Below are positions 6,456-30,066 of a stretch of DNA of 64,000 nt, in pieces. Origin of the DNA: Numidum massiliense (GTDB lineage Bacteria > Bacillota > Bacilli > Thermoactinomycetales > Novibacillaceae); contig NZ_CTDZ01000009.1 in NCBI RefSeq assembly GCF_001375555.1, positions 2,163,758 through 2,227,757 on the forward strand, written 5' to 3'. The notes under the pieces are model-generated. The model was given only the letters and a program-made list of their open reading frames with translations. It ran no database searches and was not told the origin of the DNA. The stretch's first letter is position 1. Each line of letters opens with the position of its first letter. A program made the translations under genes and the position numbers.

Positions 6456-7000
6456 GATCTCTCCCTCTTTCCTCATAAATTCTTCCTTTACGGTAAATGT
6501 TACTCTGGAAAGGGAGATGAACGGTATTCACAACGGTCAGCAATTTCACATGACAAGTGTCATTTTTTTAATCTTCAAGGAGGTTGAAGTTCGTCGTCAA
6601 TCAGCCGTTCGATCACATCGCGCCGTTCGATCGTGTCCTAAATTACATATCCTTGCGAATCTCCCGTACGACGTGACCGAGTTCCGGTAAGATGAGTTTA
6701 TGCATCGCCAATTTCACGGCGCCGCTCGACCCCGGCATGGCAAAAACAGCCGTGTCGTCCACCACCCCAGCAATGGCGCGACTCAAAATCGCGGCAGAAC
6801 CGATATCTTCCGTATAACTGAGCATGCGAAACAGCTCCCCGAAGCCGACAATCTCCTTCGTCAATAGCGCTTGGACTGTCTCGATCGTCACGTCGCGCGT
6901 CGCAATGCCGGTACCACCGTTAATGAGAACCACATCGACGTCCGCAGCTCGGCAGCCAGTCACAATCGCCTCGCGGATGGCCGCCTGCTCGTCCGACACG

Positions 7001-7041
7001 ATCTCGTATGCCGTCTTCTGCTTGAAAAAAAAAAAAAAAAA
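7001..7041. other. Illumina P7 adapter sequence plus poly-A, copy 1
   Basis: Bases 7001-7024 begin ATCTCGTATGCCG and end CTTCTGCTTG. This is the complete 24-base reverse complement of the Illumina P7 flow-cell primer. They are followed by 17 consecutive A (7025-7041), the usual signature of reading off the end of a short library insert. This is not organismal DNA. Confidence 0.96.
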
Positions 7042-7153
7042 CAGTTTGATCACCGCCCAGCACTATTCCGACGCTAATGTACGTGAATCTCACACAGTAA
7101 CAACTTTACAACGTAAGAGAGACTGCACTTCTATTTTATGTTACAAGCCACTT
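7042..7153. repeat. Error-rich duplicate of 7233-7345
   Basis: The segment aligns base for base with 7233-7345 at roughly three-quarters identity. Most differences replace another base by A (for example GTACGTGTATCACTCACTG versus GTACGTGAATCTCACACAG). This looks like low-quality read tail built into the contig rather than a biological repeat. Confidence 0.8.
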
Positions 7154-7193
7154 CACAATCGCCTCGCGGATGGCCGCCTGCTCGTCCGACACG

Positions 7194-7227
7194 ATCTCGT
7201 ATGCCGTCTTCTGCTTGAAAAAAAAAA
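7194..7227. other. Illumina P7 adapter sequence plus poly-A, copy 2
   Basis: The same 24-base adapter lies at 7194-7217, followed by ten A. The 64 bases 7154-7217 are identical to 6961-7024, giving an artefactual repeat offset of 193 bases. Confidence 0.96.
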
Positions 7228-7334
7228 CCAACAACTGTTTGATCAACGCCCCGCTCTTGTCCGTCGCTTCTGTACGTGTATCACTCACTGTAACCACTTT
7301 ACACCGTACGCGAGACGGCGCTTCTCTTTTATGT

Positions 7335-8036
7335 TCAACGACACTCATCGTGTCCGCCTCCCCATTCGCGATAAAATTGCTCTAAAAACGTCTCCATAAA
7401 CTGATGCCTGTCGCGCGCTAGTCTTTTAGCCGTGTCTGTGTTCATCAATCCTTCTAGTTTTAACAATTTCTCGTAAAAATGATTAATGGCCGTCGTCTGC
7501 TGCTGACGGTACTCTTGCTTCGTCAGTTGTTCGCGCGGACGTCGCGCAGGATCGTGGATGAGCTGCCCCTTCCAGCCAGCGTATGCGAAGGTGCGCGCGA
7601 TACCGACCGCCCCTAGCGCGTCTAAGCGATCCGCGTCTTGCACGACTCGTCCTTCTAGCGTGCGCATCGGCGGGTTGTGCCCACCGCTGTACGACATCGT
7701 CGCGATGATTTCTAAGACGTGCGCTGCCGTCGCCTGCTCGACCCGGTGGCCGTCCAGCCAGTCGCGAACTTTCCGCATCCCACTTTCGTGAGACTCATTT
7801 AATTTCTCGTCGGCAATGTCGTGTAGTAAGGCAGCTAATTCGCATACGTATGCGTCCGCCTGCTCCGCACGGGCAATCTCCTTCGCCAAGTTGGTCACAC
7901 GGTCAATGTGCCACCAATCGTGACCGCTATGATCTCCCGACAACTCGCTTTTGACGTAATCTCGCGCTTTGAGTAGCACGTCATATTGCTTCTGAAGCTT
8001 CTGTAGCTTCTGTGGCTTCTGTGGCTCGTCTACCAA
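7335..8036 (-). CDS. HD-domain phosphohydrolase (YedJ/YpgQ-like)
   Basis: A protein of about 233 aa with the HD metal-binding set: SGHDWWHIDRV (first His), ELAALLHDIADEK (HD pair) and VQDADRLDALGAVGIART (distal Asp). These match the YedJ/YpgQ group, some of which hydrolyse nucleotides in a metal-dependent way; the substrate here is unknown. The TTG at 8036 is preferred as start because AGAGGTG sits six bases upstream, although a GTG at 8045 is in frame. The N-terminus carries a short repeat (QKPQKLQKLQKQ) encoded by a nine-base tandem repeat at about 7988-8030. Its 3' end overlaps the moaB start, suggesting co-transcription. Confidence 0.85.
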   Translation of the reverse strand: MVDEPQKPQKLQKLQKQYDVLLKARDYVKSELSGDHSGHDWWHIDRVTNLAKEIARAEQADAYVCELAALLHDIADEKLNESHESGMRKVRDWLDGHRVEQATAAHVLEIIATMSYSGGHNPPMRTLEGRVVQDADRLDALGAVGIARTFAYAGWKGQLIHDPARRPREQLTKQEYRQQQTTAINHFYEKLLKLEGLMNTDTAKRLARDRHQFMETFLEQFYREWGGGHDECR

Positions 8037-8045
8037 TCGAAACAC

Positions 8046-8336
8046 CTCTTTTTTTTACAGACATACTGGGGACCCTCTATCACAGGCGATCGACTCACTT
8101 TAGTCGACTCACTTTGGTCGAAAAATAGTTACGTCTACTACTATGTGCAAGCTATTGTACCACGTCCTGGGAACCGGAACATAACCGCCCTCCTAATCAA
8201 AACCTCTGTTTTCGACGTCGCGCTTACAATGATAATTAACCCCCTAATCGGAAATTATTTTTAGATAGACTATTTACTTAAGTCTACCGATAGGTTAAGA
8301 TATAGGAAACAAATTCAAGTGGTGGGAGGGTGCAAC
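8046..8336. other. Intergenic region between the divergent HD and YwqH-like genes
   Basis: About 290 bases with no gene. It holds a short direct repeat (GTCGACTCACTTTAG / GTCGACTCACTTTGG, about 8088-8120). The sequence becomes AT-rich towards 8230-8310, where a promoter for the toxin cassette is expected; I cannot fix its -35/-10 boxes. Confidence 0.4.
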
Positions 8337-8690
8337 TTGCTCGATCCGTCTGTCGACTCGTTAAACGCTTCAGTGAAATTAAAAGAAGAACAACTCGCGC
8401 GACTAAAAACGTGTCACGCCAAATTGAAGATGACCCAGCAGGAGTTCATCAGATACAAAAATTGGTGCACACATCCATCCCTCTCATCTTATACGTGGCA
8501 AGGAAGTTTAGCTGAACAGTTCGATCAGATGCGAGAAAGCAACATCGTCAGAAGTTATGAAGACATTGCGGACAGACAGTTGAAAAATGTGATGCAAATG
8601 GTGCTCAATCGCACGACCCAACTCGAGGAAGAAATCGTCTCGCTCAAAGAGTCCATTCTCTCGTTAGAAGCGCAGTCCCGTTCAAAATAA
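8337..8690 (+). CDS. YwqH-like DUF5082 protein of a type VII-secretion LXG cassette
   Basis: The small (117 aa) largely helical protein has heptad-like regions (LNASVKLKEEQLARLKTCHAK and QLEEEIVSLKESILSLEAQ) and a central W-x-G-like turn (YTWQGSLAEQF), as in DUF5082/YwqH proteins. In Bacillus these small helical partners are encoded just before LXG toxins and help deliver them through the type VII (Ess/Yuk) system. The TTG at 8337 is chosen because GGAGGG lies six bases upstream; the GTGs at 8319 and 8322 have no Shine-Dalgarno sequence. It is the first gene of the cassette YwqH-YwqI-LXG-immunity. Confidence 0.75.
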   Translation: MLDPSVDSLNASVKLKEEQLARLKTCHAKLKMTQQEFIRYKNWCTHPSLSSYTWQGSLAEQFDQMRESNIVRSYEDIADRQLKNVMQMVLNRTTQLEEEIVSLKESILSLEAQSRSK

Positions 8691-8762
8691 GCACCCGCGT
8701 GTAAGATTGGGCGTTCGCGTTGGTAAACAAGCGTACGCTTAAGATTAAAGGAAGTGAAGCAA

Positions 8763-9050
8763 ATGAGTAGTGAAATTAGGATCGTCTTTCAAGAGGTGGA
8801 ACAAGCTTTATCCGAATTAAATGCGTCTTCACAGTCGCTTGACCCTTCGTTCCCCCTCAACAGTCGTGAGAAAAACGTCCTCGATACAGTGAAGAAACTG
8901 AAGGAATGCCAGCAGCTTCTGCAACAATCGATGCTCGCCTACAAACAGTTGCTGTTGAAAAACGAACAAGCGACGCGAACGGCTATACAGACGATGCGTG
9001 AAGCAGATCGCGACATCCTGCAGAAAACGGGCGCACGGGAGGTTTTCTAA
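8763..9050 (+). CDS. YwqI-like DUF5344 protein of the LXG cassette
   Basis: The 95 aa helical protein resembles DUF5344/YwqI (SSEIRIVFQEVEQALSELNASSQSL at the N-terminus, LKNEQATRTAIQTMREAD near the end). It is predicted to act with the YwqH-like protein as a targeting partner of the LXG toxin. The ATG at 8763 has AGGAAG eight bases upstream, better than the GTG at 8754. Its stop codon overlaps the toxin start (TAATG at 9048-9052), so translation is coupled. The last 35 bases of its coding region (9008-9042) recur exactly at 11171-11205. Confidence 0.75.
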   Translation: MSSEIRIVFQEVEQALSELNASSQSLDPSFPLNSREKNVLDTVKKLKECQQLLQQSMLAYKQLLLKNEQATRTAIQTMREADRDILQKTGAREVF

Positions 9051-10586
9051 TGAAGACCTTAGACGTCGCGGAACTTAGCCTCACCGCGAACGACATGCTG
9101 CGTAAACTACAGTCTTTAAACGAATCACTTGAAACTATTACAACGCGATGTCGAGAACATGATCTCACTGGACGATTCCTTTAACGGCCGAGCTGGACAA
9201 GCGATCCGTTCGTTCTACCTCGAATGCCACATGCCCTTCTTGTTGCTCAGCCAAACGTGTATCGAGGCGTTCAGCGAGACGTTAAAGCAAATAAATCAAG
9301 CGCTTAACGCATTGGAACCAGCTCCAAATGGCGTCATTCGGGAAGACTTTTTGGAGCAGGAGCTCAAGCATGGACTACAGAGAGTAGCTGATACGACGTG
9401 TGACCTGACGCGGGAAGCAAATGTCGCGATGCACCAAGTACAGGACATTGTTTCTCTTCCCCTGCTAAACGATACCGCCTTTATGAGTTATGTTCATGTG
9501 GCAAAAACGTTTAGCGCTGACACGGTAGAGAAACTATACGCTTTTGACGCCGAACAGACAAAGTCACTCGATTCGGTACAACAAAGCCTGTCGTTAATGA
9601 TACAATATGTGCAAGAAATTGATGCCTTGTTTCAGAGTGGGGATCTGTCAATTGCGGACTACCGTGTGAAGCAACTGTCTGACAGCGAACCGTATAATAA
9701 CGTGCTCGACGACATTGAAAGTAAGCTCAACAAGCATTTTATGACCGTCAACTCGACGATGCCCGCGGATGCGTTTATTAACGATCCGGACAAGCAAAAA
9801 GCGTGGCAGTATTTTAATCAGATTCGCGGTAAGACCCTAACACGAGAAGAATTTATGACGTTAAAAAGCCAGCTTGTCGAGGTTGTTGAGGTCATTGATG
9901 AACAACCAGACCTAAAGCCTGGAGAAGATCCAGACCTGAACTATATCGGGGGGAAATACTACGTATTCAAAAATGGCCTTATTGTTTGGTGGAACCGTTC
10001 CAAACGTACATACGAAGTAGTGGATGATATCCCTGAAAAAAGGGTCGGTGGGGCAATCCCGAAAGACTCTATTTTTGAGGATACCCCTTTGGAGTTTTTG
10101 GATTATGTATCTCCGGGGAGTGTTGTAAAAAAGGTTGTAGTAAAGTCTGTTCAGGGAATCATAAAGAAAAATGTAAGAAATGTAACGAAAAACAGCAAGA
10201 AACCTAATATCTCCAAGCACCACGATAAAGTCGCCCACAACGAATACTTTAAGCGAAAAAACGAACGGAGGGAATTATATAATTCGATCAAAAGTGATCG
10301 GAAGACTGCAATCGAGACAAGCAAAACTATTAAACCTAATAAACCGATAGAAACGACGATTAAAGGACGTAAGGTAAAGCTCCGAGTAGATATCGAGCCG
10401 GATGGAAATAAAATGCAAATACAAACGGGAGGGGGTAGTAATTCGTTTATCGATGAACGAATAAAGCCAAATAAACCAATAGAACCCCAGATTCCCAAAT
10501 ATATAAAGAGAAGTTTAACGAAGGGACAATATGAAGAGTTGGTTAAAAGGTTGAAGCAAGGGGCTAAATATTTAAAGGGGGAATAA
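9050..10586 (+). CDS. LXG-domain polymorphic toxin with an apparent frameshift near the N-terminus
   Basis: The expected start is the ATG at 9050, overlapping the previous stop, with GGGAGG upstream. That frame encodes MKTLDVAELSLTANDMLRKL and then stops at 9182-9184. The remainder of an LXG domain (DVENMISLDDSFNGRAGQAIRSFY onward) continues in another frame from about 9141 to 10586. A shift of one base near 9146 joins them into about 511 aa. The LXG domain spans roughly 1-220 and drives type VII export. A linker (LEFLDYVSPGS) precedes a variable C-terminal toxin of about 150 aa, rich in Lys and Asn, with IKPNKPIE twice and GRKVKLRVDIEPDGNK. I do not recognise the toxin fold. The 3' half is more AT-rich than the 5' half, as expected for swapped toxin tips. 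The frameshift may be a sequencing error, a pseudogene, or slippage. Confidence 0.78.
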
Positions 10587-30010: not shown

Positions 30011-30066
30011 AGCTTGGTAAAACGGCATCCTATTCGTTGCAGGTGGTGCCGATTGTTTACCAAGCT
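30011..30066 (-). terminator. Long-stem terminator of the ADP-ribosylglycohydrolase operon
   Basis: AGCTTGGTAAA at 30011-30021 pairs with TTTACCAAGCT at 30056-30066, and CGGCA at 30023-30027 pairs with TGCCG at 30047-30051. The minus strand continues with TTTCGGTTGTTTATTTC. Confidence 0.7.

Follow-up and report, generated by a model that had tools for sequence, protein, structure and literature searches.

The moaB gene of Numidum massiliense appears broken in its assembly, and the question raised by this locus is whether the break belongs to the organism or to the sequencing. Within the window, that is, the entire 64,000-nucleotide stretch of DNA that was analysed, moaB occupies positions 6643 to 7348 of the minus strand and is broken into open frames of 136 amino acids (6643-7053) and 70 amino acids (7136-7348). 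The 3' part of the gene extends from 6643 to 7000 and the 5' part from 7228 to 7348, with 193 surplus bases in the region between them. A profile search matched both parts to TIGR02667 (3.5e-32 for the 3' part and 3.6e-8 for the 5' part), each match falling under the whole-protein cut-off as expected of a fragment. The two halves match the profile in order, over positions 5-59 and 49-150 of 163, identifying the gene as a MoaB. When the genome was searched, the 3' part was found in one place and the 5' part only in the two copies of a repeat described below. Directly upstream, on the same strand, is an HD-domain gene (PF01966, 7335-8045); because 14 bases at the start of moaB also belong to its open frame, a single transcript for the two genes is suggested.

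An exact-match search of the window located two 24-base reverse complements of the Illumina P7 flow-cell primer on the plus strand, at 7001-7024 and 7194-7217, followed by runs of 17 A (7025-7041) and 10 A (7218-7227), respectively. A first-pass annotation, made from the sequence, had described both copies and their poly-A runs as splitting moaB, and the positions and open frames agree with that description. The 24-mer occurs nowhere else in the genome (3,755,739 bases in 9 contigs), for which about 2.7e-8 copies are expected by chance; two exact copies of a synthetic oligonucleotide thus lie far beyond chance, and the P7 and repeat structure is almost certainly a sequencing artefact rather than a feature of the organism, as first proposed. 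The site is not at a contig end, lying deep inside contig C9 (position 2,170,758 of 3,614,356 bases), and neither adapter nor index separates genome from P7, the moaB-side sequence abutting the primer directly. Mismatch scans of the whole genome, run with controls, gave no convincing oligonucleotide sequence besides these two copies. At up to two mismatches, the 15-base end of the P7 complement had 31 matches (2 exact, 1 with one mismatch and 28 with two) versus 26 for a reversed control. At up to three, part of P5 had one match versus one in the control and the Nextera motif two versus one, which is not above control level. For AGATCGGAAGAGC, three matches were found at up to one mismatch, none of them exact, versus none in the control, and exact AGATCGGAAGAG is absent from the genome.

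Both P7 copies are contained in a direct tandem repeat of 193 nucleotides (copy 1, 6960-7152; copy 2, 7153-7345), previously noted and here found to be ungapped and 86% identical. The repeat copies are identical over their first 75 nucleotides, and all 27 differences fall within the last 118. Copy 1 consists of 41 true bases, the P7 complement, its A run and, at 7042-7152, a degraded, in-register version of the moaB 5' sequence and start, hereafter called the ghost. The ghost contains no insertions or deletions, is changed mostly to A and lines up best with copy 2 at offset 0, where 15 of 60 bases mismatch, versus 36 at the next best offset. The differences are evenly distributed, at 3-5 per 20 bases. 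Copy 1 has changed to A at 21 of the 27 differences, and at 21 of the 23 where copy 2 does not itself have A (binomial tail with p = 1/3, about 1e-8). With copy 2 as the reference, C was changed at 12 of 39 positions and T at 8 of 35, every one to A, G at 3 of 20 (one to A) and A at 4 of 24. Such a pattern resembles poor base calls and not mutation. Of the clean copy and the degraded, A-biased copy proposed in the first-pass annotation, the latter was borne out; copy 2 is not clean, since it carries a foreign block of 34 bases at 7194-7227. The two sides of the 7152/7153 junction have just a short stretch in common, for example AGCCA.

Apart from this block on the plus strand, the P7 complement with ten A (P7+A10), copy 2 is true sequence. 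The 11-mer ATCTCGTATGC occurs in the genome only within the two overprints, as we call such blocks. Across the block the protein encoded by copy 2 reads LIKQLL-VFFFKQKTA-YEIVSD. It aligns without a gap to residues 1-65 of the solved MoaB structure 1y5e_A, from which it differs in that the nine residues before YEI are encoded by primer and A run. In the alignment to 4lhb_A, a second and weaker match in the PDB, there is a gap of one residue at the block and another, of two residues, elsewhere. Thirteen of 14 close homologues (3' part 58-71% identical) keep the spacing of nine residues before the Y position; the exception, L015, exceeds copy 2 by two residues at this point. Among more distant homologues the spacing agrees in four of five, L020 being two residues shorter. 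Because of the gap-free alignment to 1y5e_A and the spacing in homologues, it is very likely that P7+A10 in copy 2 stands in place of 34 moaB bases, in register, and is not an insert in the gene, as had been assumed.

Subtracting 193 bases from the 706-base span of moaB leaves 513 bases, or 171 codons with the stop; open frames of the 14 close homologues encode 166-229 amino acids, some with sequence preceding the start. The gene is probably intact in the cell, as the first-pass annotation also held, and the assembly 193 bases too long. A product across the site had been predicted to be 190-260 bases shorter than the assembly; since P7 in copy 2 replaces sequence in register, the surplus should instead equal the 193-base period. 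The moaB of this genome should not be labelled as duplicated or as a pseudogene. The true bases under 7194-7227 are present in neither repeat copy, and up to 26 of them would be hidden by the overprint. Because YEI is conserved, moaB likely carries ATCTCGTA at the break, in line with the earlier proposal, and the conserved YEI would also imply the first few bases beneath the block.

In-register overprinting without a change of length was found at the protein level in the window and at the DNA level at six other loci for which an intact counterpart exists. Klebsiella phage Marfa (L191) and phage EI (L344) were each compared with three relatives, and a genome of the class (L263), whose gene we read as SecF, was compared with its genus. 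Counterparts of the prophage tail sheath gene of E. coli 2024CK-00535 (L349) and of Vibrio phage D173 (L360) were WCHEC005784 and 219E41.2, respectively, and Paenibacillus sp. GM2 (L134) provided its own counterpart in a second copy 128 bases further along. The E. coli pair differs at 0 of 600 bases outside the block and at 22 of 34 inside, and the Vibrio phage pair at 1 of 600 and 15 of 34. Outside the block, mismatches number 7, 9 and 16 of 666 between Marfa and its relatives and 15, 11 and 20 of 666 between EI and its relatives, with 17-18 of 34 inside for both phages; for L263 versus L266 the figures are 37 of 566 and 15 of 34. When the 60 bases behind the block were scanned against the counterpart at 121 offsets (using one relative each for Marfa and EI), offset 0 was best at all six loci, with 0-7 mismatches at five of them and 22 at the noisy Paenibacillus locus; the next best offset gave at least 31.

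The block stands at the same site of the portal gene in Marfa (MN044033.1 and NC_048798.1, 99162-99195) and EI (MN106245.1, 100436-101135). The portal protein of EI is annotated as two coding sequences, and the Marfa record has no coding sequence over its portal gene. In the complete chromosome of E. coli 2024CK-00535 (NZ_CP157243.1, 1731289-1731322) the overprint is in frame inside the annotated tail sheath protein WP_349335858.1. P7 blocks also lie under annotated coding sequences in Vibrio phage D173 and in Proteus phage Saba (L365, a candidate overprint). These cases, together with frames in L156, L216 and L263 that contain KQKTAYEI or KQKTAYEM, substantiate the earlier warning that a contaminant peptide would enter protein data; the peptide KQKTAYEI was not found in the literature searched. 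The Vibrio phage error recurs at one site in separately deposited genomes, the block having identical coordinates (30016-30049 in OZ196032.1) in several records of this 52,228-base phage.

Most of the P7 matches listed from other records are of a different kind. Within the class, 2 of 398 genomes, this one and G107, contain the 24-mer. Scans with the 24-mer returned at least 120 stretches in genome contigs and at least 120 in viral contigs, with 246 matches among those listed. Sorted by script, 230 of these 246 have a TruSeq or Nextera adapter before P7 and 15 have none, one being too short. Reading by eye reassigned six matches to the adapter-bearing group on account of adapter or index remains before P7 (L038, L055, L070, L109, L214 and L239), and 10 of the 246 listed were finally taken as adapter-free (L063, L098, L110, L134, L148, L156, L188, L191, L207 and L216). 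Nine of the listed matches have at least 300 bases of the locus on both sides; five of these are adapter-free (L134, L148, L156, L191 and L216), and the other four have an adapter or its remains (L070, L078, L086 and L251). Adapter-free P7 is therefore rare yet makes up about half of the contig-internal cases among the matches listed, as would be expected if such a P7 leaves the assembly unbroken. In 130 of the listed matches the end of the A run is visible; 30 runs are shorter than ten, 25 are exactly ten and 75 are longer, so that 100 of 130 reach ten or more, with a jump at ten.

Among phage records, 64 of 50,697 had a P7 match at a limit of E 1; a further eight of these 64 were inspected, of which two were adapter-free (L360 and L365) and six had an adapter. 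P7-like matches were found in 9 of 5,426 E. coli genomes, one of them being the overprint L349. In six others (L350-L353, L355 and L356) an adapter, or what is left of one, precedes the match. All six are complete chromosomes, in whose interior adapter, index and P7, or damaged versions of these, are found. In E. coli kdpA (L354; NZ_LR882052.1, 3103008-3103035) an adapter-free P7 is out of register, with 13 surplus bases, and the gene is marked as frameshifted. A weak match in asnB (L357) may be natural. The P5 complement with ten A was found in 72 stretches of viral contigs, 61 with an adapter and 11 without, and 6 of the latter 11 are contig-internal. For one internal case, an RmlA (L287), the alignment of the protein to 4ho0_A runs through the block with no gap. 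On these comparisons both surface oligonucleotides, P7 and P5, appear to produce overprints.

Mispriming by the P7 oligonucleotide of the flow cell, during cluster amplification, is a likely cause of the overprints, and we consider it probable that the overprint, the ghost and the false join all arose in this way. The grafted 5'-T10-P7 oligonucleotide would anneal by its 3' end inside an insert, here at the YEI codons of moaB, and be extended. Truncated strands, the dominant ones, would then sit beside full-length strands within one cluster and would be read as genome, P7 complement, ten A and end, the A10 deriving from the T10 linker. Full-length strands remaining in the cluster would supply the genome behind A10, in register, giving a 34-base overprint that leaves the length unchanged. 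In copy 2 the continuation of such an overprint would be clean and in copy 1 a weak, A-biased ghost; at 7152/7153 the assembler may have run the ghost's end into clean sequence, producing the 193-base tandem and splitting moaB. Ten A are what the complement of a T10 spacer on the surface oligonucleotides would give, and PMC11123353 lists T10-P7 and T10-P5 primers for bridge amplification on a slide. Some observations count against this mechanism. The intact counterparts match the 3' end of the primer over 13 bases in Marfa, EI and the Paenibacillus locus; because the match is 7 bases in L263, 6 in the Vibrio phage and as short as 2 in E. coli, 3' annealing alone does not account for all loci. 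The kdpA case is out of register, the Paenibacillus locus is noisy and 30 of the 130 listed A runs fall short of ten; the gap at the block in 4lhb_A and the spacing in L015 and L020 point the same way.

Mispriming could also have occurred earlier, by a P7-tailed primer during library PCR, yielding real short molecules from which, once their reads were stacked with normal ones, a column-wise consensus of the assembler or polisher took P7+A10 over 34 columns. Blocks in register, like that of copy 2 and those at the six loci, would be expected in this case too, as would P7 lacking an adapter. No single read would then continue in register behind P7, although a column-wise consensus could mimic copy 2, and copy 1, in which P7 is followed by a noisy, in-register ghost, would be hard to produce. 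We therefore prefer mispriming within clusters, the ghost being noisy yet in register, and regard an origin in library PCR as unlikely. The first-pass annotation had suggested that untrimmed reads merged at the break, and read-through of short inserts into untrimmed adapters, with a chance merge at a common word, does describe the appearance of the 230 scripted adapter-bearing matches among the 246 listed. It explains neither the resumption in register after P7+A10 nor the ghost, both of which flow-cell mispriming explains. Ordinary read-through was rejected for the moaB site, where P7 is not preceded by an index or by a TruSeq or Nextera adapter, no exact AGATCGGAAGAG exists in the genome and the length of copy 2 is unchanged; it is very improbable. 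A true tandem duplication with insertion in the living organism has nothing in its favour beyond the assembly itself and was likewise rejected. It would have to place a synthetic 24-mer twice against a chance expectation of 2.7e-8, A-directed noise without insertions or deletions is not a usual mutational spectrum, and the same block occurs in unrelated organisms; its probability is close to nil.

The overprint in the window differs from contamination described before. Adapter contamination of microbial genome databases has been found at contig ends by scanning for AGATCGGAAGAG, according to the portions of Moeller et al. 2024 (PMC11536531) consulted. The window shares with those cases Illumina oligonucleotide sequence built into a microbial assembly, but has no adapter, carries P7 deep in a 3.6 Mb contig and keeps the gene length in copy 2. 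A published read-end case, as excerpted, has the same P7 complement followed by exactly ten A; there the read end is trimmed and followed by poly-G, whereas in the window the genome resumes in register, inside the assembly. No description of flow-cell primer mispriming or in-register overprints as an assembly error was found in the literature searched, which included excerpts of PMC3163567; older or paywalled work may exist. Filters keyed to AGATCGGAAGAG miss overprints because these do not contain it. On balance, we lean towards regarding length-preserving overprinting by P7 and P5 as a distinct, recurrent class of assembly error, sited where the genome resembles the oligonucleotide, missed by AGATCGGAAGAG filters and contig-end checks and already affecting proteins annotated in named isolates and phages. 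Assembly checks do not catch an error that preserves length and, in many cases, frame, and it reaches databases as protein; a search for P7+A10 or P5+A10 lacking a preceding adapter would reveal further cases.

A further observation concerns the window at 8319-10586, where genes for a YwqH-like protein (8319-8690), a DUF5344 protein (8754-9050) and an LXG-domain protein (9129-10586) follow one another on the plus strand. This row looks like an LXG polymorphic-toxin locus.
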